DNA from: a virus
Length of the DNA stretch: 24,542 nucleotides
Reading direction: 5' to 3' (one strand)
Virus record (IMG/VR): IMGVR_UViG_3300033148_008526
Coordinates: 1-24,542 of that record
The notes beneath the pieces are model-generated. The model was not told the origin of the DNA and did not search any database. It was given only the letters and a program-made list of their open reading frames with translations. Shown here one piece after another: positions 1 to 21,416 of the stretch (its first letter is position 1; each line of letters opens with the position of its first letter). Both the position numbers and the translations under genes were made by a program.

Positions 1-438
1 TTCCGCATCCACTTGGCCCATGCCGGTGGGGGTTTCTCTTTCTTTTTTCATTTTACTAATATCATACAAAATTTCCCTAAGATGATTGTCTGAACTTATT
101 TTGAATTCTCGGGCCTTTCCTTTTTTGTCTGGTCGTGCCTCATACTCTTGTATGCACGAAAAAGTACGGAGTTTAGATATTATGTCTTCTTTCTCTTGTT
201 CATATTTGCTAGCTATTTCTTCCATAATTTCTCTGTCTACTCTAAGTCCCCGATGTTTCAAATTAGCTAACACAGGTAAACATCGCATAAAGAAATTATT
301 AAATTCTTGCAGAGAACTATCTAAAGACAATTTTATTTTCTGATCTAAATAGGATTTGAAAGTATAACGAGAATCAAAATTGTTATAATTTGCAAGGTTC
401 TCAAGTGTTTCCTCTTGAAGCTTTGTCCTGTTGTATTT
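1..438 (-). CDS. PolA-type DNA polymerase, continuation in shifted frame (partial)
   Basis: This frame opens just after a TAG at 439-441 and runs to the window edge, so the C-terminus lies outside. It has no usable start codon near its beginning and reads as the direct continuation of the upstream UDG/exonuclease ORF after a frame change. It carries a YNNFD segment, which fits the YxxxD exonuclease III motif of family A polymerases. After that comes a stretch with LKHRGLRVD, typical of the beginning of the PolA thumb region where the sequence MexxGixVD recurs. The polymerase palm and fingers would lie beyond position 1. The match to family A polymerase order is what I see; that both frames form one gene is inference. 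See the linked finding about the frame break and the shortened spacing. Confidence 0.7.
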
Positions 439-1547
439 CTATTGCAGTTCACAACATGTGCTGTAACCATGGTGTCATGAATAAAATTGTTCATTGGTGT
501 ACCATATACTATTCTGCTCCACATCTCTTCCATATAATAATTCTGAACAATCTTAGGGCTAGACCCTGCTATATACCGTTTGAGGGCGGCCACAATTCTA
601 TCTAACTCCTGCTCTGTCCATATGGGTTTTCCATTTACTTGAAACTCAATAGGTATGCACACAGCACTTTCTACTTCATCTGTTATGGAAATTGCATACG
701 TTATAGTTTTTGGAGAAAAAGCATTATAAGTATTTGTTTCAAAGTCAAAAGATGTGGGCTTCTCAGTAGTAGCAAAATGATCCAAAAGTTCTACAGCTTG
801 ATCTGCATCTGTAATAAGTAAATTTCCTTCTTCTGTTAGTGGCTGGGGCAGTGGAACATCCAGACTACCTAATATGTCTGCTAAATCATTGGTAAATACT
901 GCTTCATCACACTTGCCCCCCGGATCCATTCTATTTCGTATGAAAAAAGAAGGACGAAAAAGTGAACCTGCCCAGCAGTTAAACTCATGTACAGGAAAAG
1001 ATAATCCATGTACATTACTTGCAGCAAAAGCACTAAGGCCTTTAGGATTCGCTACCGCTTGAATGGCTTTAGTTCCACAACATATTATTAACTTAGGTTG
1101 AACTTCTGCTATATCTTGCAGCAATTTATCTCTACAGCATAATATTTGCGTAGGAGTAGCTTTTTTATCTTTACCTTTCTTATCTCGTCCAGGATAGCAT
1201 TTGACAACTGTAGTTCTAATACAGTCATCATCTAAATCTATATCGAAAAAATTCTTTAATTGGCGTTTCAAAAAGATACCTGGAGCACCCACTAAAGGCA
1301 TTCCATATTTATCATCTGATCTACCTGGTTGTTCATCAATAATAAGAATTCCTGCTTTTCCTTTTCCTGCTCTTTTGATTTTAGGATGCTTGCATTTTTC
1401 TGAGAGACCACAAGTTGAGCAATCAAATACTTTTGGAGCTTTTTTAGTTTTAGCTTTAGAAGAACTTTTTTTCTTTTCAAATTCCTCAGGATGTTCCGCC
1501 ATATACACTTCTAATGGTCTAAGAAAGAAAGGTTGAGTTATTCCCAT
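345..1547 (-). CDS. Uracil-DNA glycosylase-like domain fused to DNA polymerase I 3'-5' exonuclease domain (frame-disrupted)
   Basis: Residues about 41-230 resemble a family 4 type uracil-DNA glycosylase. There is a CxxC pair (C43, C46), a DEQPGRSDDKYGMPLVGAPG segment at 71-90 that fits the GExPGxxEDxxGxPFVGxAG active-site loop, and C117 and C137/C138 that fit the remaining iron-sulfur ligands. Residues about 265-360 are a DnaQ/PolA proofreading domain: exo I is DFETNT (D268, E270) and exo II is QNYYMEEMW, where the usual Asp seems replaced by Glu. An HDTM segment follows at 357-360. After about residue 370 the frame degenerates into a hydrophobic tail and stops, while the other frame carries exo III and the thumb. 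The ATG at 1547 follows GAGGAAAAG and lies directly after the clamp stop. The intact protein would be the replicative polymerase, with the N-terminal domain perhaps sensing or removing uracil. Confidence 0.8.
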   Translation of the reverse strand: MGITQPFFLRPLEVYMAEHPEEFEKKKSSSKAKTKKAPKVFDCSTCGLSEKCKHPKIKRAGKGKAGILIIDEQPGRSDDKYGMPLVGAPGIFLKRQLKNFFDIDLDDDCIRTTVVKCYPGRDKKGKDKKATPTQILCCRDKLLQDIAEVQPKLIICCGTKAIQAVANPKGLSAFAASNVHGLSFPVHEFNCWAGSLFRPSFFIRNRMDPGGKCDEAVFTNDLADILGSLDVPLPQPLTEEGNLLITDADQAVELLDHFATTEKPTSFDFETNTYNAFSPKTITYAISITDEVESAVCIPIEFQVNGKPIWTEQELDRIVAALKRYIAGSSPKIVQNYYMEEMWSRIVYGTPMNNFIHDTMVTAHVVNCNRNTTGQSFKRKHLRTLQIITILILVILSNPI

Positions 1548-2943: not shown

Positions 2944-3939
2944 CTAAAAGAAAGGTTTAGGTATTCTCTTTCCTGTATTTATTTTTTCTTCTTCTATATA
3001 CTTTAATAGGTTCTCAAAGTAGATCACGTTAGCTCGTGCTCTTTCTGAATAGCTTCGTTCTAATAAATCTACATCTATACCTATCTCTTCTAAATAGTTC
3101 AAAAGAACTTTTTGTTCTTTGGCTGTTCGTTCTAAAGTAAAATGAACAACAGATTTAGGATTTATCTTAGACTCCCAACTTACACCTATTGGATTTGGCG
3201 GCAAATCGTATCTAAGTTGTCCTGTAACAAAATTATATTTTGGCACAAAAATTTTACCGTACGCTGCTACCTGTAACCAAGTTGTCGAGTCAACACTGAA
3301 CCATGGATATCTAAACATCAACGGCACACTAGTAATGCCAAATCCGTGAACCATCGTCTCTTTATCTAAACCATCAATGATACGAAAAACTTCATCACCA
3401 AACCTAGTTATATATTTGTGACTATTCAGTCCTCCGCTAACTCCTCCGCCTAACGCTATGTAATCATACTCTTGCAGCATTTCTCGTAAAAAACCAAAAT
3501 GATACTTTTTACGTTCGGGATTGCCTAGCTCCGGATGATAATGAAAAACAGGTACAGGTGTAACTCCCGCTGCTTCCATATAACGTTGGGTTCGTAAAGT
3601 CTTCTCTGGATTACCCACAAAGTCAAGGTTAGCATATCCGTATAATCTATCCCTATGCTCTTTAATAAAAGTAATATAGGTATCCAGGTACTCCATTTCT
3701 TTTTCTTCCGTAACCGTTTCTCCGCGTTTAGTTATAAATTGATCCCAACTATACGCACCAGAATCCAGAAACACCTTGAAACCTTCCCATTTAGAAAAAG
3801 ATCTAGTCATGCCACCTTTATACCAGAAGGATTCAAGGGTCATCATCCTTTTTTTCTGGAGATACTCTATCATCCATTCTCGTTCTTTTAGGCCCATCTG
3901 TTTGCATGCACCAGCTAAGTAAATTCTTTGTAATTTCAT
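2944..3939 (-). CDS. dpdA: tRNA-guanine transglycosylase-like protein, probable DpdA-type DNA 7-deazaguanine transglycosylase
   Basis: The protein (331 aa) reads as a TIM-barrel of the tRNA-guanine transglycosylase (TGT) superfamily. FLDSGAYS at 57-64 aligns with the TGT TDSGGFQ motif, giving D59 as general acid/base. HGFGIT at 198-203 fits the barrel strand before the second catalytic loop, and FSVDSTTWLQVAAYG at 214-228 would supply the nucleophilic Asp (D217). TGTs exchange guanine for a 7-deazaguanine base in RNA; the DpdA branch does so in DNA, and phage DpdA proteins are known with preQ0 genes. It lacks the C-terminal CxCxxC zinc site of bacterial tRNA TGT, which favours the DNA branch. 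It lies 27 bases downstream of queC. The fold call is fairly firm; the DNA substrate is inferred from context. Confidence 0.65.
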   Translation of the reverse strand: MKLQRIYLAGACKQMGLKEREWMIEYLQKKRMMTLESFWYKGGMTRSFSKWEGFKVFLDSGAYSWDQFITKRGETVTEEKEMEYLDTYITFIKEHRDRLYGYANLDFVGNPEKTLRTQRYMEAAGVTPVPVFHYHPELGNPERKKYHFGFLREMLQEYDYIALGGGVSGGLNSHKYITRFGDEVFRIIDGLDKETMVHGFGITSVPLMFRYPWFSVDSTTWLQVAAYGKIFVPKYNFVTGQLRYDLPPNPIGVSWESKINPKSVVHFTLERTAKEQKVLLNYLEEIGIDVDLLERSYSERARANVIYFENLLKYIEEEKINTGKRIPKPFF

Positions 3940-3966: not shown

Positions 3967-4908
3967 CTATAGAAAAATAGCCTTATCATCTATTAGAAAA
4001 TCATACTGATGCTTCCCTAAGCTTAGTGAATTATAGTTCACTTTATGTTTTTCTAGCCACGCTTCTGTAACCTCCCGATCTACCGGGAATCTACTAGTCC
4101 ATAGATTAATAGTATGCCCAGCTCTATATAAAGCGTTGATTTTATTTATGTTTTCAACGTTAGGAGTTCGATTGGCATAATCATGCCCCTCCGTTTCAAT
4201 TGTAAGCACGCCGTCTATATCAACAGAATATATTTTCTTAGCTAAAAATTCACGCACTGTCCTAATGATGTTGTCATTGCGTTGCGAAACAAATACACCA
4301 GATCGAGCCTTCTTGAAATATTCAGCTATAAGATCCCGATTGTAGAAAGGTAACTTAATTCCATTCACCCATAACGCTACCCATTTTCTAAAACAGCATC
4401 TACACTTTCCACAGTAATTCCCTTCCGTAAGATCATAGCAGCTACCTGTTTTTATTAGCTGCTCTGTCTCTTTGACGTTTTCTAAATACCATTTTACAAT
4501 ATCTGCCTTGGTGTGCTCCCAAAAAGGACTCATAACTTTGATAGGTTTATTATTTAGAATGGTTAATGTTCTGGAAAATTCTTCAAAGATGCCCGGGTTT
4601 TTGTCGTTTACATTATCATCCGCTAAGCCGGCCATATAAATTTCATCAGCATATTTGGTAGCTAATAAAGCATAATATAAGTTACGGCCAGGTATAAACT
4701 TGGAATCCCCCGCCACTTCCCTATCTGCAAGATTTATAGAAGAGTCTATGGTTATTGGAACACCTAATTCTTTAATAACACGTATCTCTTCTTTACATAC
4801 CGGCAAACCTATATCAAAGTAAACGCAAGGCGGTTTGCCCAAGAAATGCCAAGCAATATATGAGTCTAGTCCCCCACTGAATAGTAATACTCTTTTATCT
4901 TCTTCCAT
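3967..4908 (-). CDS. queC: QueC (7-cyano-7-deazaguanine synthase) fused to a C-terminal HAD-type phosphatase domain
   Basis: Residues 1-180 are QueC: an ATP pyrophosphatase PP-loop SGGLDS at 11-16, FIPGRN at 71-76, and the zinc site C157, C166, C169, C172 in the CGKCRCC segment. QueC converts 7-carboxy-7-deazaguanine to preQ0 with ATP and ammonia. From about residue 226 a second domain starts: SVDIDGVL gives HAD motif I (D230, D232), LWTSR gives motif II (T271 or S272), and a lysine near K299 followed by FLIDDKA (D307, D308) gives motifs III and IV. QueC alone is about 220-230 residues, so the roughly 85-residue HAD tail is an addition. Reading is uninterrupted. The ATG overlaps the stop of the upstream tiny ORF (TAATG). 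The substrate of the HAD domain is unknown. Confidence 0.88.
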   Translation of the reverse strand: MEEDKRVLLFSGGLDSYIAWHFLGKPPCVYFDIGLPVCKEEIRVIKELGVPITIDSSINLADREVAGDSKFIPGRNLYYALLATKYADEIYMAGLADDNVNDKNPGIFEEFSRTLTILNNKPIKVMSPFWEHTKADIVKWYLENVKETEQLIKTGSCYDLTEGNYCGKCRCCFRKWVALWVNGIKLPFYNRDLIAEYFKKARSGVFVSQRNDNIIRTVREFLAKKIYSVDIDGVLTIETEGHDYANRTPNVENINKINALYRAGHTINLWTSRFPVDREVTEAWLEKHKVNYNSLSLGKHQYDFLIDDKAIFL

Positions 4909-5127: not shown

Positions 5128-5919
5128 CTACTTACCCTTCAAAAAATCCTCTACCGCTTTTGGTTCATTCTGAAAACGTTGCCTAAATACATTTTCTAAT
5201 GAATACTGCCAATCCCTCCGCTGCTCTCGACTCATAAGATGCCAGCAGACGGCTCCAGTAACAAGCAAACCATTTCCCACATTTCGCGTCTGAACAAACT
5301 CCTCCAACGGAGCATTATCGGGGAAACCTTCCAGGGCTTCCAGTAAAGTCCCTACACAATAATTTCGGAAAATCACTCCAGAGATGCCACCATATTTTAT
5401 GGGAATGATTTGTTCTGTTTTATATCTGAAGAATGCATATTGATATTCTTGAGCATCTGCAGGAGGACTATCATATGCTTGTGTTGAAAAATCTGGTTTT
5501 GCTACTTCGTTATTTGGTAAAAGGAATAATCCACCTACAAAATTCTTAATTTTTGTTGGACAATTTTTTGCCAGTATTTCATATTCCTTTAAAACTCTGA
5601 TCAGCGTTTCAATATAATCTGGTGCTAATAGTGCATCATCATCTAAAGGCATGAAATCATTTTTTTGTACTTGCTTAAGTAAAACTTCTCGAGCTCTGCT
5701 TAACCCCTCTCGTTTATTCGATCGGAGATACTGCATCTCAATTCCGAGTTCAGAAAGTATGTCCCAAATCATCCTGTTTTTATAATCTGAAAAAATAGGT
5801 TGACTACCATTATCATAAACAATAACTCGAGCGGGTTTAATTGTTTGACTAGATAAAGACATTAAACATAGACCAATTACATCCGGTCGATCTGCTGTTG
5901 GTATAAGCACATCAATCAT
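5128..5919 (-). CDS. Family 2 glycosyltransferase
   Basis: The 263-residue product has a GT-A fold layout. It opens IDVLIPTADRP and continues to VYDNGS about 35 residues on, the nucleotide-sugar binding half. A LDDDALL segment near residue 95 is the metal-binding DxD. GT2 enzymes transfer a sugar from a nucleotide-sugar donor; in phages, targets include modified DNA bases and surface glycans, and the acceptor here cannot be told. I place the start at ATG 5919, not the upstream TTG, because GGAG lies at the right spacing and the ATG overlaps the kinase stop (ATGA). No membrane segment or signal peptide is seen. It is the last gene before the promoter at 5062-5101. Confidence 0.82.
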   Translation of the reverse strand: MIDVLIPTADRPDVIGLCLMSLSSQTIKPARVIVYDNGSQPIFSDYKNRMIWDILSELGIEMQYLRSNKREGLSRAREVLLKQVQKNDFMPLDDDALLAPDYIETLIRVLKEYEILAKNCPTKIKNFVGGLFLLPNNEVAKPDFSTQAYDSPPADAQEYQYAFFRYKTEQIIPIKYGGISGVIFRNYCVGTLLEALEGFPDNAPLEEFVQTRNVGNGLLVTGAVCWHLMSREQRRDWQYSLENVFRQRFQNEPKAVEDFLKGK

Positions 5920-6431
5920 TTTATTCTCCAAATTTCTTTAAAACCTTCATGCTCATGCGGTTCAACATATTTAGAATTCTTGCTTGCCCATACCTCCTCC
6001 CATACTTTCAAATCCTGCCCATAACTATTTTCTGCCAGGGCTTTCCGTTTAAGAGTTTCTTCTTTAGTCAGCTTAGGAAGAACAACCGCTATAATGTCGC
6101 ACGCGGGGGCGCTCTCAGTAATATGTTCAATAATCTCTGCACGCGTTATTACTGCTTCATTTGTTTCATCACAAATGACATTAATGCCTATCTGTAAAAG
6201 ATACTTTATAGCGTGTTTGGACATATCATGCACAAATGTTTCAAAGTTATTTTCATCATACACATATTCGCCACCGCCTATCATTCGGCGAATAGCATCT
6301 TTAGATACCACTGCCCAAGGACAACTTTTTCCTTCAGCTACTAAATCCTTTTGTGTTGCTAAGAAATTCTTAATCCAGGTAGTTTTACCAGATGCAACAT
6401 TCCCTACCATAATAAGTGCAGTAAGTTTCAT
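5916..6431 (-). CDS. P-loop kinase, polynucleotide-kinase-like
   Basis: This 171-residue protein has Walker A GNVASGKT at 10-17 and SKDAIRRM at 43-50, which resembles the SRD/SKD phosphoacceptor-binding segment of T4 polynucleotide kinase and related AAA_33-type kinases. A Walker-B-like NVICDETN follows, and a lid region with KRK. It should phosphorylate a 5'-OH end or a nucleotide-like group. An RNA ligase is encoded at 16701-17891 and three tRNA-like genes lie just upstream, which fits RNA repair; a DNA base hypermodification kinase is an alternative, given the overlapping glycosyltransferase gene. No 3'-phosphatase domain is fused here. Its ribosome binding site is weak. Confidence 0.72.
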   Translation of the reverse strand: MKLTALIMVGNVASGKTTWIKNFLATQKDLVAEGKSCPWAVVSKDAIRRMIGGGEYVYDENNFETFVHDMSKHAIKYLLQIGINVICDETNEAVITRAEIIEHITESAPACDIIAVVLPKLTKEETLKRKALAENSYGQDLKVWEEVWASKNSKYVEPHEHEGFKEIWRIK

Positions 6432-6607: not shown

Positions 6608-6681
6608 TAGCCCCGACCGGATTTGAACCGGTGCCGCCGGGTTGAAGGCCCGGTATCCTGACCAGCCTAGACGACGGGGCC
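6608..6681 (-). tRNA. tRNA-Glu (UUC anticodon)
   Basis: A complete cloverleaf can be drawn: acceptor GGCCCCG with CGGGGCT (first pair G-U), anticodon stem CCGGG/CCCGG with loop CCTTCAA giving anticodon TTC, and T-arm ACCGG-TTCAAAT-CCGGT. No CCA is encoded. It lies 7 bases downstream of a small CDS in a tRNA cluster. Confidence 0.92.
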
Positions 6682-6688
6682 ACTATAG

Positions 6689-6877
6689 TTATCTTTCACC
6701 CATCACTTCTGCTGTATGGCGGTCTTGTGCCTCCTCCAAGATGATATCTGCTGTCTGGAGCATACCTCGTTGGATTGCTATTTTGGCCTCTTCCAATTTT
6801 TTATTGTACTCAGCCGGGAGTATAAATCTAGCAATTCTGTATTTGTACTCTACGTTTGCTCTTGTAAGCTCTGCCAT
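6689..6877 (-). CDS. Small helical protein between tRNA genes
   Basis: The start at ATG 6877 is chosen because AGGAGA lies at ideal spacing; the longer reading frame would begin inside the neighbouring tRNA. The product is 62 residues, starts MAELTRANVEYKYRIARF, is rich in Glu, Lys and Ala, and is probably helical. I recognise no family. Its position between two tRNA genes on the same strand means it is transcribed with them. Confidence 0.6.
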   Translation of the reverse strand: MAELTRANVEYKYRIARFILPAEYNKKLEEAKIAIQRGMLQTADIILEEAQDRHTAEVMGER

Positions 6878-6897
6878 TTTTTGTTCTCCTAAAAAAA

Positions 6898-6971
6898 GAT
6901 GATCGATGGGATTCGAACCCATAACCTTCGGGATTACAATCCGGTGCTCTAGCCAGTTGAACTACGGCCAA
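6898..6971 (-). tRNA. Degenerate tRNA, probably tRNA-Thr (UGU) with a 6-nt anticodon loop
   Basis: The D-arm (GTTC...GAGC), variable loop and T-arm (ATGGG-TTCGAAT-CCCAT) are good. The anticodon arm reads CCGGA-TTGTAA-TCCCG: a 6-base loop instead of 7, with one C-C mismatch in the stem. Restoring one T gives anticodon TGT (Thr); adding an A instead would give GTA (Tyr), but the short variable loop argues against bacterial tRNA-Tyr. The acceptor stem has further mismatches. It is either a decaying tRNA or a sequence with a base missing. Confidence 0.55.
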
Positions 6972-6981
6972 CGTTTAGTAA

Positions 6982-7065
6982 TAGCCCGGGTGAGATTTGA
7001 ACTCACACTCTCCGAAAAGAAAGGGTTTTTAAGACCCTTGCGTCTGCCGATTCCGCCACCGGGCC
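6982..7065 (-). tRNA. tRNA-Leu (UAA anticodon)
   Basis: This 84-base class II tRNA has acceptor GGCCCGG with CCGGGCT, anticodon stem AGGGT/ACCCT and loop CTTAAAA giving anticodon TAA. A long variable region as expected for Leu precedes the T-arm GTGAG-TTCAAAT-CTCAC. It reads UUA, a codon favoured in this AT-rich sequence. It starts 7 bases after the radical SAM gene ends. Confidence 0.92.
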
Positions 7066-7072
7066 AACTATT

Positions 7073-8080
7073 TTACTTTTTATGAGCGAAATTCCTTTTG
7101 CCCTCATCAGCTCTATTTTCTGAAGCGTATTTATTAGTCTCGTACATATGATCCCAAAAACATCCTCGCTTACAATCTGCAATAGTATTTTGAAAAGATA
7201 TATAAATCTCTTCATCCTTTTTCCCATCTGCTAAATCAAAAATTGAATAAGCCCTGTTCAACGGTCGATCTATGCATGCCATCAAACTACCATCAGGATT
7301 TACTGCTGGACATGCCCATTCATAGCAATGCCAATTTTGCTCTATACCAAACTTAGTCCACACTTCAAAATAATCTTTTTGATTATGCAATTTTAATCTA
7401 TTATAATTTCGCACAAACCATTTAGAAGTATTTCCAACTACATTTTTATCTTGTAAAATATTCTTGAAAACTAATTCATTATTGTCTTCTGTTTCTGGTC
7501 CTCTGTACCACCAATACATGGACTCACTGGGCGGACAAACATGAAAGAATGAAAGAATACTCCAAATGTTCTTCTTTGTAAAGTGTTCAACTAATTGAGG
7601 CAGTTGCCCTATATTTTTTCGAGTTACTGCCATATTAGCCACTAAATCACATTCTGGAAGATCTTTTTTAAGTTTAAGCAGAAGCTCCCCACCTATCTCA
7701 CTTTTCTTATTATCATGAAAAACATCTTCAGCTTTAAGAGCATTTACGGATGTACTGATACCAAATGGTTTAGAAGCTATAAGATGCTCATAATATTTTT
7801 CATCTTTCATAAGTCGGATGCCATTAGTTATGATCGTATGCGGCATCTCTATCTCATTTAGATACTCTACCATATACGGCAGATCATCTCGAAGAGTGGG
7901 TTCCCCTCCAAAAAGAACCACAAAACCCACGCCTCGATTTTTCATAATATCAAAGGCTTTTATCCACTTTACAAGATTCATATTAACTTCTGTCTGATGG
8001 TGAATAACATTACAACCTCGACATCTAAGATTGCATTCTCGGTTAATGAAACAGCAAACCTTTTGCCAGTGCTCAAACAT
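7073..8080 (-). CDS. Radical SAM enzyme with C-terminal Cys-rich (SPASM-like) region
   Basis: Near the N-terminus ECNLRCRGC gives the CxxxCxxC motif that binds the 4Fe-4S cluster used with S-adenosylmethionine. LFGGEPTL, about 60-65 residues later in the protein, matches the GGEP motif. The C-terminal third has CYEWACPAVNPDGSLMAC, then a later CKRGC, which resembles the auxiliary-cluster region of SPASM/twitch enzymes where CxxNPDGxxxxC is common. It is not QueE, which is encoded separately. The start is ATG 8080 behind GAGGAG rather than the TTG at 8086, giving 335 residues. The substrate is unknown: peptide, tRNA or nucleotide modification are all possible. It lies just upstream of the tRNA cluster. 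Confidence 0.82.
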   Translation of the reverse strand: MFEHWQKVCCFINRECNLRCRGCNVIHHQTEVNMNLVKWIKAFDIMKNRGVGFVVLFGGEPTLRDDLPYMVEYLNEIEMPHTIITNGIRLMKDEKYYEHLIASKPFGISTSVNALKAEDVFHDNKKSEIGGELLLKLKKDLPECDLVANMAVTRKNIGQLPQLVEHFTKKNIWSILSFFHVCPPSESMYWWYRGPETEDNNELVFKNILQDKNVVGNTSKWFVRNYNRLKLHNQKDYFEVWTKFGIEQNWHCYEWACPAVNPDGSLMACIDRPLNRAYSIFDLADGKKDEEIYISFQNTIADCKRGCFWDHMYETNKYASENRADEGKRNFAHKK

Positions 8081-8102
8081 ATCCAACTCCTCAATTTTTA
8101 AT

Positions 8103-16017: not shown

Positions 16018-16701
16018 TTATGAAGTTGAAGACTGTAGGTAGTCCATATTATCTCGTATCATCTTTTCAACTAATTGTCGTGGCCAATCCATATTTGGAA
16101 CTAAAGGAGTAGCTGGCCGCAACCTGTGTAAAGAGATAGCTGGACTAAAAACTTTCTTAGCTACCCAGTGCGGATGATTATCTATAACGTCCTTGGCATA
16201 CTTATAATCATAATCATTAGCAATAACAAATTTAATTACATCTATTTGTCTTAGATCTTGAAAAACCTCATCTTTCATATGCTTGTTCATTCCAGATGAA
16301 GGAAGCTTATAGTCGACTACGTATCTTGTATTCTCCCATACTTCTTTACTGCGACATGTATTATCTATTTTAATTGATCCATTTGTTTCAATACTGATTT
16401 TACAATAGTGAATAGGATGCTTCCACATAAGTTTCACACATAATTTGTTTACTGCTTCTTGCTGGAGCAATGGCTCACCTCCAGTTATAGTTACTTTCTT
16501 AAAATGTACTTGTTCAATTATTTCATTAATAGTCATCCAATTTTCAGGTGTAGGTGATTGAGAGTAAGCGGTGTCGCAGTACCCGCATGATAAATTGCAA
16601 CCCTTTAGTCTTATGAAAGTCGTAAGTTGACCAGCCCCATCAAAACAATTATATTCACCATCTATGCTATTGAAAATAGAACACACGTTTAATTTACACA
16701 T
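16018..16701 (-). CDS. queE: QueE, 7-carboxy-7-deazaguanine synthase
   Basis: The 227-residue protein opens with SIFNSIDGEY, the QueE signature for the substrate-binding start. It has CNLSCGYC with C35, C39 and C42 for the radical SAM cluster, followed by DT as in QueE, and TGGEPLLQ near 73-80. The later DYKLPSSGM and KFVIAND segments also match QueE. The enzyme rearranges 6-carboxytetrahydropterin to 7-carboxy-7-deazaguanine, the step before QueC. The ATG overlaps the RNA ligase stop (TAATG) and GGAGG lies upstream. Length is normal. Confidence 0.92.
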   Translation of the reverse strand: MCKLNVCSIFNSIDGEYNCFDGAGQLTTFIRLKGCNLSCGYCDTAYSQSPTPENWMTINEIIEQVHFKKVTITGGEPLLQQEAVNKLCVKLMWKHPIHYCKISIETNGSIKIDNTCRSKEVWENTRYVVDYKLPSSGMNKHMKDEVFQDLRQIDVIKFVIANDYDYKYAKDVIDNHPHWVAKKVFSPAISLHRLRPATPLVPNMDWPRQLVEKMIRDNMDYLQSSTS

Positions 16702-17891
16702 TATAATTCGTCCTCCACATCGCCCACGTTCTTCTCCATTCTTTTATCCTGATCTAGCAAAAATTCAGGAGATTTATATTTCAAACAAGTCCAATTTCCA
16801 TCCTTCTTTTCAAACCAAACAACAACTCCTTCACACAATGTTTTTGCATCTACTCTAGACATTCCAGAAGCTGCAGATTGAGATGCTTCTACCACTTCTT
16901 CTTTACCGAACGCCATACCTATAAAAAATGGTTGTTCCATGCCTAGCTCTAACGCTCTAGCATAAACCTGTTTACGACTTAAATCTATCGGACATCTGTA
17001 ACGAACATTCGGTGGAAGCGATTGCGTCACTCGATACAGCATTGCTTTGAATTCACCACTACGACAATCATATGGATATCCCGGCTGAATCATTTTACCT
17101 CCATCGTACCCATAAATCTCATAGTAAATGGTTTCTCCACGATGCAAATGCGGAGCTACTCTTCTTTCAATCTCTTGCCGTATTGCCGGAATATGATGAT
17201 TAATATTATCCACTCTACGAGTTCCGCTAATGATTTTCCATTCCTGTTTGGGTGCCCAAAATTTCCACCAGGAACGTTTTGTATCTACTAATACGTTTCC
17301 TGTTCTACCACTCGTACCATGAATTTTTTCCTCAATCCAACACACAGTGCTATCAGGAATACTGTCCAATTCTCTCATCAACTGTTTGGTGTCCCAGTGT
17401 TTATGAAACATTTTAGATACAGATGGCCTTTGTTGTCTCTGAGCATGCTTAGTTGGTACGATATACTTACTGCATATCTCAATTCCATTAATAGATACGA
17501 ACTCATCCCCGACCCGCAGAGAAAATGGTTTATCATTAACTAGTTCAGGTATTTTGAATAGAGAATCAATATCAATAACGTATCCGTTGCTCATTTCTCC
17601 CCGAAACTTCTGAGCACGAACTTTGCCATTTTTTCCGAAATATCCTTTTTTAGTTGAATCAATATTCATCTCTGAACTACTATAAAGATTGTTGTGGTAC
17701 AAAAAAGTATGTGACAATCTCAAATTAGAATCAAAGTAAACCATCAGATCATCTTCTTTGGCTTCCCACCCTACTATCACAGTAGTGCCTAAAACAGTGG
17801 CCAGCTTAAGTCTATCGGCGTTGGGATGCTTCCGCACATTCTGCAGACGCACTATAATTGCATTGTTATTTTCTGACTTAGTTAGTTTCAT
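16701..17891 (-). CDS. RNA ligase (Rnl2/DraRnl-like) with N-terminal OB-like domain
   Basis: The nucleotidyltransferase core starts near residue 180: EEKIHGTSGR gives motif I with lysine K189 (K-x-H-G). YYEIYG (about 256-261) is motif III, CEGVVVW near 353-359 is motif IV, and LKYKS (370-374) is motif V. The first ~140 residues carry NADRLKLATVLG, which resembles tRNA-binding OB folds and fits the Deinococcus-type RNA ligase arrangement. It would join RNA ends, possibly repairing tRNAs cut by host defences; a P-loop kinase gene and tRNA genes are also in the window. GAGGAAG precedes the ATG, which overlaps the stop of a tiny disrupted ORF. Confidence 0.85.
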   Translation of the reverse strand: MKLTKSENNNAIIVRLQNVRKHPNADRLKLATVLGTTVIVGWEAKEDDLMVYFDSNLRLSHTFLYHNNLYSSSEMNIDSTKKGYFGKNGKVRAQKFRGEMSNGYVIDIDSLFKIPELVNDKPFSLRVGDEFVSINGIEICSKYIVPTKHAQRQQRPSVSKMFHKHWDTKQLMRELDSIPDSTVCWIEEKIHGTSGRTGNVLVDTKRSWWKFWAPKQEWKIISGTRRVDNINHHIPAIRQEIERRVAPHLHRGETIYYEIYGYDGGKMIQPGYPYDCRSGEFKAMLYRVTQSLPPNVRYRCPIDLSRKQVYARALELGMEQPFFIGMAFGKEEVVEASQSAASGMSRVDAKTLCEGVVVWFEKKDGNWTCLKYKSPEFLLDQDKRMEKNVGDVEDEL

Positions 17892-20243: not shown

Positions 20244-21416
20244 TTAAAAATTTCCTTTTTCAATAAGAGACAAAAATTCAGATCTAGTAGCTTGATTTTT
20301 TTTGAAAGCCCCAACAACAGAAGTAGTCACAGTTACAGATTCAGGTTTACTTACTCCTCTCATACGCATACAAAAATGTTGTCCTTCTACATATGCAGCC
20401 GCTCCTTGGGGTTTTATCTTCATAAGATATTTTGTTATTTCATTTGTTAATTGTTCTTGAACAACTGGTCTTTTTGCTAATATTTCTGCTAATCTAGCTA
20501 ATTTAGATATCCCTAAAATGTGCCCATTAGGAATGTACGCTATGGAGATATACAATTCCACCGGTAAAAAATGATGTGGACACATTGAAAAAACATGTAT
20601 ACCATTAACTACAATCATCTCATCCGTATCGTCTTTAAAAGCTGTAGATAGAATAGAATCAATTTGTTTTTCTGTATCTTTAACTCCTTCAAAAATTTCT
20701 GCGTATGCTCGAGCAACACGCTTGGGTGTTTGCAAAAAATGCTGATCTTTTATTTTCAAACCAAACTCTTTACGAAGACCTTTCAAAATAAGATGCATTC
20801 CTTTTTCAATATCATAAAGGCCCACATATCTGGTAGAAGTTCTTCTTAATTCATTGTGCAGTTTGGAATGGCAACTTCTACACATTACGGTTAAGTTTTC
20901 TAGAGAATGATTTCCTATTTCAGAATTATAGTTATTACAATCTATGTGATGAACAACTAATCTTTTTTTAGGAAAAATTTTTCCACATCTTGAACAGGTC
21001 CTTCCATAATGTTCAAGAGCTCGATTTCTATAATTATTAGCATTATAGTATTCTGTATTTCTTTTAGTTTGTTTCATTTTTTCATTAGATTTTTTTCGTG
21101 TCTTTGAATCCATATTATCTTTACTCCTAACACGTATTTGATTTGGATCTTTCATTTGTTCAATAGCTGAAGAACGTTTTGCATCTTTAAGTTCTTTTGC
21201 TTTAACGGGACCAAACATTTCTATATACGTTTTTCCTCGACTATGATCCCCACGAGTATTCGTTCTATGACATGTTTCCATAAGTGCTTTTGGAAACTTT
21301 TCTTTATATTTTTTCATTGTCATATTATGATATTTTTTAAGATGGGTATTAGAAATTCTCTTAAATTTTTTATCACACAGTTGGCAAACTACAAAATCAT
21401 CATCCAATTTGTGCAT
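20244..21416 (-). CDS. folE: HNH endonuclease fused to GTP cyclohydrolase I
   Basis: Residues 1-55 contain a C2H2-like finger (C11, C14, H25, H30; HLKKYHNMT) of the type found in phage HNH homing endonucleases. Residues 141-190 are the HNH domain: CSRC (141-144), VVHHID (154-159), N174, and CRSCHSKLH with C179, C182, H183, H187. From about residue 200 FolE begins with YDIEKGMHLILKGLRKEFG, continues with TPKRVARAYAEIF, the zinc site SMCPHHFLP (C279 and the following His) and the second Cys in GQHFCMRMRGV (C349). FolE turns GTP into dihydroneopterin triphosphate, the first step to preQ0. No stop, start codon with good Shine-Dalgarno or frame change separates the halves. ATG 21416 follows AGGAGA. 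Confidence 0.88.
   Translation of the reverse strand: MHKLDDDFVVCQLCDKKFKRISNTHLKKYHNMTMKKYKEKFPKALMETCHRTNTRGDHSRGKTYIEMFGPVKAKELKDAKRSSAIEQMKDPNQIRVRSKDNMDSKTRKKSNEKMKQTKRNTEYYNANNYRNRALEHYGRTCSRCGKIFPKKRLVVHHIDCNNYNSEIGNHSLENLTVMCRSCHSKLHNELRRTSTRYVGLYDIEKGMHLILKGLRKEFGLKIKDQHFLQTPKRVARAYAEIFEGVKDTEKQIDSILSTAFKDDTDEMIVVNGIHVFSMCPHHFLPVELYISIAYIPNGHILGISKLARLAEILAKRPVVQEQLTNEITKYLMKIKPQGAAAYVEGQHFCMRMRGVSKPESVTVTTSVVGAFKKNQATRSEFLSLIEKGNF

Follow-up and report, generated by a model that had tools for sequence, protein, structure and literature searches.

Phage DNA containing 7-deazaguanines is shielded against restriction (PMC6884629). In the same source, the Gat-QueC proteins of phage 9g-like and archaeal systems combine QueC with an added catalytic domain, and they occur in phages with DpdA. 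According to PMC13279940, 7-carboxy-7-deazaguanine (CDG) is recognized in B. subtilis QueC by the residue pair Y129/D131, and Cap9 joins a deazaguanine to a protein N-terminus. In a different modification, RB69p051, which has a phosphatase domain, is listed among the genes presumed for arabinosyl-hmdC synthesis (PMC8056088).

The window analyzed here, a viral DNA of 24,542 nucleotides (positions 1 to 24,542 of IMG/VR record IMGVR_UViG_3300033148_008526), has 36% G+C and carries phage replication genes. It encodes a 313-aa QueC-HAD fusion protein on the minus strand (3967..4908), whose frame is open from the ATG at 4908 to the stop at 3967. The initial annotation had claimed a continuous frame from QueC into a HAD phosphatase, and this was borne out: the motifs SGGLDS, FIPGRN, the four Cys, DIDGV, WTSR and IDDKA were all present, and the same fusion was found on two further IMG/VR contigs from two other metagenomes, L007 (79% identity over residues 1-313) and L008 (61% identity over residues 5-313), both among the best 80 of 154 relatives in the QueC scan. 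A stop or frameshift between the domains near residue 225, which that annotation had named as the way the fusion could fail, was excluded since L007 and L008 carry the same fused frame, and a sequencing artefact as the source of the fusion was ruled out by the agreement of the three contigs. Purifying selection seems to act on the HAD codons, with a dN/dS of 0.23 between the window and L007 and of 0.16 between the window and L008, the latter at a dS of 2.2, which is near saturation. The AlphaFold model of the fusion, built on a 47-row alignment, had a mean pLDDT of 91.4 and a pTM of 0.81; an earlier model from 3 rows (pLDDT 63) was set aside. Among named phages, 406 records matched the fused protein, but in none did a single match span 80% of its length, and a close full-length fusion was therefore not seen among them. 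Foldseek against viral models returned single-domain QueC or HAD matches, with no clear QueC-HAD by coverage among the best 50 of 1079. A cellular origin was also considered and rejected: in the scan of genome contigs there were 12 relatives of QueC, and the profiles detected a HAD with none of them.

The QueC domain (residues 1-205; 4294..4908, minus strand) is of the phage type and matched Pfam PF06508 over residues 42-175 with 50.5 bits (cut-off 22; E 2.5e-13). It contains the PP-loop SGGLDS (residues 11-16), FIPGRN and Cys 157, 166, 169 and 172, and in a six-row alignment of the window with five other phage QueCs the SGGxDS PP-loop and the four-Cys zinc site were invariant. Structure comparison by VIA-align gave Z scores of 17.5 with QatC, 17.2 with B. 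subtilis QueC, 16.9 with Cap9 and 16.6 with 2pg3. The curated equivalog TIGR00364 was not reached (40.2 vs 150.3 bits), and D102 aligned with B. subtilis D131 while Y129 fell in a two-residue gap of the six-row profile. This half is assigned, on its sequence, to the QueC family and not as a proven 7-cyano-7-deazaguanine synthase. By eye, residues 206-222 resemble the C-terminal stretch of the non-fused QueC of L153, and because that protein ends alike they look like QueC's own C-terminal helix.

The HAD phosphatase domain (residues about 223-313; 3970..4242, minus strand) was matched by phrog_1238 over residues 217-311 (E 6e-20). The EcbF-BcbF family TIGR01689 matched at E 1.7e-6, far under its curated cut-off (28 vs 162 bits), and no Pfam HAD model matched the fused protein above its own cut-off. 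The domain is cap-less, with predicted catalytic residues D230, D232, T271, K299 and D307, and its DxD, Thr/Ser, Lys and Asp motifs together with its fold place it in the HAD superfamily. Conservation of the catalytic Asp had been proposed as a check, and it held: both Asp of the DxD motif were invariant in 10 aligned HADs, as were the motif-III Lys and a motif-IV Asp, with Thr or Ser in motif II, and DxD was present in all of the 19 HADs from 7-deazaguanine clusters described below, in which motif IV differed in a few (LDNK, IDEK, ICDK). In VIA-align with the AlphaFold model, the nearest structure was 9iqw, AfhF (Z 11.8, rmsd 1.6 A, 83 aligned residues, 32% identity), followed by 1xpj (Z 11.6, 2.0 A), T4 Pnkp (Z 9.6, 3.1 A) and Pnkp1 (Z 9.5, 3.0 A). 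The QueC half dominated the best 50 rows of the fold search, which barely probed the protein beyond residue 172, so that the ranking of AfhF over Pnkp rests on the six rows that cover the HAD. A profile of the cluster HADs gave matches to 9iqw (E 7e-19), 1xpj (4e-15), Pnkp1 (7e-7) and 2obb (4e-4). A stretch of 10-12 residues after motif II, present in AfhF and 1xpj, is missing from the cluster HADs, and for this reason their substrate is probably not arabinose 1,5-diphosphate.

The fused gene lies among genes for 7-deazaguanine synthesis and insertion. A DpdA-type guanine transglycosylase (2944..3939, minus strand; phrog_887, 2.7e-41) begins 27 bases past the QueC-HAD stop; it was 29-33% identical to Tgt/DpdA-like proteins among the matches listed (30 of 170 phage records), and no Pfam family matched it even at E 1. 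QueE (16018..16701, minus strand; phrog_2076, 1e-34) and FolE (20244..21416, minus strand; PF01227, 7e-57) are encoded farther along, and the window thus contains DpdA with FolE, QueE and QueC, the set that defines a 7-deazaguanine DNA-modification cluster. FolE forms the C-terminal half of its frame, and an HNH endonuclease (PF01844, 1e-6) with a ROS/MUCR-like zinc finger precedes it in the same frame, possibly as a homing-endonuclease fusion. No QueD was found in the 24.5-kb record, and L008's record has one. The idea that the HAD substitutes for QueD was discarded, since 14 of 20 HAD-bearing records, among them that of L008, encode QueD; the six without it are records of 12.6-50 kb whose completeness is not given. 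At the window's end (1-1547, minus strand), a UDG-DNA polymerase matches the single 883-aa frame of L007 in two frames meeting near 414-432, which may reflect a frameshift, an insertion or a sequencing error.

The co-occurrence of QueC-HAD with DpdA, another point the initial annotation had raised, was confirmed, as dpdA directly follows all three fused genes, and it extended to separate HAD genes. We scanned related loci with profiles for QueC, QueE, QueD, FolE, DpdA, DpdA2, two HAD groups and a second radical-SAM protein (rSAM2), taking the best 80 of 154 QueC relatives, all 65 DpdA relatives and the best 80 of at least 423 HAD relatives. The data showed that within 7-deazaguanine clusters QueC is repeatedly accompanied by a small HAD, which is new here. 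After removal of near-copies, a first HAD clade comprised 12 records (three of them fused to QueC) and a second clade 7 records; the HAD was fused to, or at most two genes from, QueC or DpdA in 18 of these 19, and the distance in cluster cases ranged from 0 to 4 genes. In the first clade it was fused in the window, L007 and L008, adjoined QueC or DpdA in L012, L022, L099, L151, L152 and L153, was separated by one gene in L010 and L201, and lay farther off in L009. In the second clade it adjoined QueC or DpdA in L017, L025, L042, L043, L082 and L089, with one gene between in L011. The HAD of L204, which adjoins DpdA, was cut by the contig end and left out of the counts. QueC or DpdA was seen in 60 of the 65 DpdA-scan loci, and a HAD in 3 of those 60 (among them L087, the contig of L007), at distances of 0, 1 and 1 genes from QueC/DpdA; the ranking in that scan is independent of the HAD. 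Among the best 80 of at least 423 HAD-scan loci, 12 showed QueC/DpdA, 11 of them with a counted HAD. In an adjacency test on 15 loci without near-copies, the HAD was fused or adjacent in 11 against 2.3 expected, and none of 100,000 simulations reached as high a number, with a bias in favor of this result in that these loci had themselves supplied the HAD profiles and the full-length fused protein was the query by which the QueC scan was ranked.

These HADs also formed distinct groups in a tree of 89 rows, from which 3 duplicate loci had been removed along with identical rows and those shorter than 75 aa and in which the cluster label was blind to DpdA2. The window's group consisted of cluster HADs in 12 of 13 rows (support 97/89), the odd row being L163, with no QueC/DpdA in its 16 kb, and the second group in 8 of 8 (98/95); the cluster label required 4 changes vs 19 in shuffles. 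The distribution bears on a further explanation, that the HAD is one of many small phage HADs of nucleotide or sugar metabolism that drifted into the operon and was fused to QueC without a joint function. This HAD family is indeed widespread without QueC, as 68 of the best 80 of at least 423 HAD-scan loci had no QueC/DpdA in the fetched DNA, and in L056 and five HAD-scan loci (L187, L193, L197, L220 and L221) a HAD sat 8-9 genes from a QueC/DpdA-type gene. L056's distant HAD grouped with ordinary HADs, as expected of a negative control, as did the others at 8-9 genes that entered the tree. In a quick QueC tree (74 of 122 rows), 10 of the 13 QueC rows of first-clade records formed an exclusive clade (SH-aLRT 96), outside which lay both QueCs of L022 and the QueC of L201. 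The clade structure, the adjacency test, this joint inheritance with QueC and the existence of two separate groups all speak against drift, which we regard as quite unlikely. The QueCs of second-clade records were scattered over the tree (7 changes vs 7.7 in shuffles), a pattern consistent with what may have been several gains or losses. Two QueC genes were seen in L022, and likewise in L089.

A serious, though less likely, alternative is that the HAD serves core preQ0 synthesis, clearing phosphorylated by-products or spent nucleotides and so pulling a high-flux pathway forward, with no new base being made. The candidates for such clearing would be AMP or PPi from QueC, triphosphate from QueD, and stray dihydroneopterin phosphates. 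The fusion partner is an enzyme that produces AMP and PPi, and two separate HAD clades neighbor FolE, QueC and DpdA. The HAD lies amid core genes in the compact clusters L152 (QueD-QueE-FolE-HAD-QueC-DpdA), L082 (QueD-QueE-FolE-QueC-HAD-DpdA) and L043, and the seven second-clade records that remained after removal of near-copies had no strong rSAM2 match. On the other hand, a HAD was present in 16 and absent by profiles, within the fetched DNA, from 64 of the best 80 of 154 QueC-scan loci, so the core pathway seems not to need it. AfhF-like cap-less HADs are also not known to act as pyrophosphatases or nucleotidases, which would count against clearing.

The other neighbors of the fused gene were then compared among 49 hand-chosen records (19 HAD-bearing and 30 other QueC-scan records). 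The second radical-SAM protein (7073..8086, minus strand) is MoaA/PqqE-like with a Cys-rich C-terminus. Strong matches to it (E below 1e-40) occurred in 12 of the 49 records, 10 of them with a first-clade HAD. With the window and the near-copy L021 counted (50 chosen records), 11 of the 13 first-clade records had rSAM2, compared with 2 of the 37 remaining records (Fisher p 1.5e-7), and within the best 80 of 154 QueC-scan loci the figures were 6 of 7 and 2 of 73 (p 6e-7), the rSAM2 profile and alignment having been seeded from records in which it was then counted. The contig of L007 starts where rSAM2 would sit, and L152 is without it. On the QueC tree, the two features gave 2 independent contrasts, too few for significance, and rSAM2 and the first-clade HAD may therefore be one inherited module. 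Three tRNA genes lie at 6608-7065 (minus strand), between the kinase and rSAM2. Directly upstream of QueC-HAD is a family-2 glycosyltransferase (GT2; 5128..5931, minus strand; PF00535, 8e-12). It is beside all three fused genes, in L007 at the same place as in the window and in L008 one gene farther. Of the 49 records, L007 and L008 had PF00535 above cut-off, whereas the remaining 47 yielded no more than two weaker matches; thus it reached the cut-off in none of the 17 HAD-bearing records besides the three fused ones. Elsewhere the neighbors included SDR genes (L022 by Pfam; L009 and L014 by reading of the sequence), methyltransferase-like genes (L009, and weakly L151), a gene resembling UDP-glucose/GDP-mannose dehydrogenases (L025) and, in L011, a weak match to PI3/4-kinase or HipA.

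The window also encodes a P-loop kinase (AAA_33, polynucleotide-kinase-like by Pfam and phrog matches; 5916..6431, minus strand) and an RNA ligase (16701-17891). The initial annotation had pointed to the kinase, and the HAD could be the 3'-phosphatase of a polynucleotide kinase-phosphatase whose two halves are encoded separately and which repairs RNA or DNA. Consistent with this, the kinase matched positions 4-123 of phrog_505 and the HAD positions 156-240 of the same family, Pnkp folds were matched at Z 9.3-9.6, Pnkp1 was among the profile matches, and several of the standalone cluster HADs matched the Pfam PNKP phosphatase model, 2 of 10 above its cut-off (L022 and L009). However, AfhF was nearer than T4 Pnkp, and the linkage of the HAD is to QueC and DpdA. 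L007 encodes a counterpart of the kinase, but tblastn (E 1e-8) gave no match to it in 16.9 kb of the fused locus L008, whose record has a sub-cut-off AAA_33 match elsewhere than that locus. Of the 49 other records, 3 matched AAA_33 above cut-off (21 at E 1e-3), and 3 matched the RNA-ligase family above its cut-off (5 at E 1e-3). As a general rule the kinase link was not supported; the idea fits mainly the window's own neighborhood, and we consider a repair role improbable.

The best explanation of these data is that QueC-HAD is a bifunctional enzyme of a phage 7-deazaguanine DNA-modification pathway, with two domains that both look active; we infer both the activity of the HAD and its service to that pathway. 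Our leading, still tentative, reading is that the HAD removes the phosphate from a small group with which the 7-deazaguanine is then elaborated, and other roles for it share the remaining probability. The QueC half would adenylate CDG and yield the amide and nitrile, or another amide, and DpdA, encoded next, would insert the base into DNA. The HAD half would be an AfhF-type Mg-dependent phosphohydrolase acting on a small phosphorylated metabolite, most likely the sugar- or polyol-like group added in this elaboration, or a precursor of that group. Where QueC and HAD are fused, the neighboring radical-SAM enzyme and GT2 glycosyltransferase might build and attach this group.

The favored sugar- or polyol-phosphate rests on related HADs that lie with sugar genes, on the listing of RB69p051 and on the GT2 beside the fused genes. 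HAD queries matched 400, 328, 6 and 284 named-phage records. Over its aligned stretch, AfhF is almost the same in sequence as a Mosigvirus HAD, which follows sugar-phosphate isomerase-like and nucleotidyltransferase-like genes and lies two genes before a dCMP-hydroxymethylase-like gene (names by reading). An Acinetobacter phage is annotated with kpsF, cytidylyltransferase, HAD and thyA, and in S-CBWM1 the HAD is followed by a thymidylyltransferase. In the surroundings of five named-phage HADs (3-6 kb), no QueC was annotated or, in the unannotated Mosigvirus, recognized. A route through a sugar nucleotide was rejected, as no PF00483 nucleotidyltransferase was present in any of the 20 HAD-bearing records. 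This absence counts against elaboration of the base, as do the limitation of above-cut-off GT2 to the fused lineage and the compact clusters L152 and L082, among whose genes no elaborating enzyme was found, the records being of unstated completeness. By analogy with Cap9, QueC-HAD might instead be a condensing enzyme that joins adenylated CDG to a small phosphorylated amine (an amino-sugar or amino-alcohol phosphate); the HAD would remove the phosphate, the radical-SAM enzyme and the glycosyltransferase would finish an undescribed hypermodified 7-deazaguanine, and DpdA would place it in DNA. We offer this as a speculative scheme with little probability.

Several other arrangements were observed in the related loci. 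A phosphoribosyltransferase-like domain (DDxxDSG) fronts FolE in 11 ORFs and is a separate ORF in 25 more (36 ORFs, some of them near-copies), the separate ones mostly near FolE, QueD or DpdA2. Examples are L009:4378-5289, L013:4782-5699, L153:8679-9644 and L022:4178-4612, of which L022 and L153 have Pfam matches that pass the cut-off, L013 has a weak one and L009 has none. This domain might convert the guanine released by DpdA back into GMP, from which GTP could be supplied to FolE. In Stenotrophomonas phage Yut2, the gene immediately preceding QueC encodes another kind of small HAD, too far diverged to be caught by the cluster-HAD profile (E 0.03), and Menderavirus phages likewise have a different HAD next to QueC. 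In Yut2, at L005:2254-3995, a myo-inositol-1-phosphate-synthase-like gene, so called in PMC9025141 for the related phage Ps15, and a HAD annotated as polynucleotide kinase are followed by QueC, a DpdA2-like gene and QueE. Gat-QueC-like ORFs, with an N-terminal amidotransferase by reading, were present at L014:4889-6508 and L201:11323-12675, in clusters with a plain QueC and rSAM2. The DpdA-like gene at L003:6680-8878 (732 aa) is interrupted by a lengthy insertion that keeps the frame and, by reading of the sequence, resembles an intein.

In a partial check of the open-access literature, no description of QueC-HAD was found, which is not a claim of absence from print, and no paper on 9iqw/AfhF was found there. 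The available portions of PMC6884629, PMC11888242, PMC9025141, PMC6024577, PMC8056088, PMC8651126 and PMC13279940 do not describe QueC-HAD or a cluster HAD; in the text of PMC6884629, the only use of 'phosphatase' is in the methods for mass spectrometry, and 'phosphoribosyl' is absent. The DNA-modification system itself is known, while its phosphatase component was not found described in this partial check.

The fusion was finally compared with the systems it resembles. It shares with B. subtilis QueC (3BL5) and Pectobacterium QueC (2PG3) the fold, the PP-loop and the four-Cys site, and the Asp of the CDG pair aligns, but it has an appended HAD, the stacking Tyr Y129 falls in a profile gap, and the TIGR00364 cut-off is missed. 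Cap9 of type IV CBASS and QatC of qatABCD resemble the QueC half in fold (Z 16.9-17.5), whereas they belong to bacterial defence systems and are without a HAD domain, and DpdA is not named in the available text of PMC13279940. Gat-QueC differs in that its added domain is a glutamine amidotransferase, not a phosphatase (PMC6884629). T4 Pnkp is like the HAD half in its core; unlike it, it deviates by 3.1 A and is fused in T4 to a kinase, and a polynucleotide kinase-phosphatase has kinase and HAD in one protein where the window has separate ORFs. AfhF, by its entry title a D-arabinose 1,5-diphosphate phosphatase of phage HY126, has the same HAD fold and catalytic motifs, but it is a 134-residue chain without QueC, has the stretch after motif II and belongs to another DNA-modification chemistry. 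Because the name of AfhF refers to a sugar-phosphate reaction and its relatives are found with arabinosyl-hmdC genes, more than one DNA hypermodification may draw on a single family of small HADs. On at least two occasions, one of them a fusion, a phosphatase seems to have become associated with QueC, and it marks a step absent from the described core of FolE, QueD, QueE, QueC and DpdA. The linkage of HAD and QueC suggests that the way in which some phages disguise their DNA includes a step not yet described.
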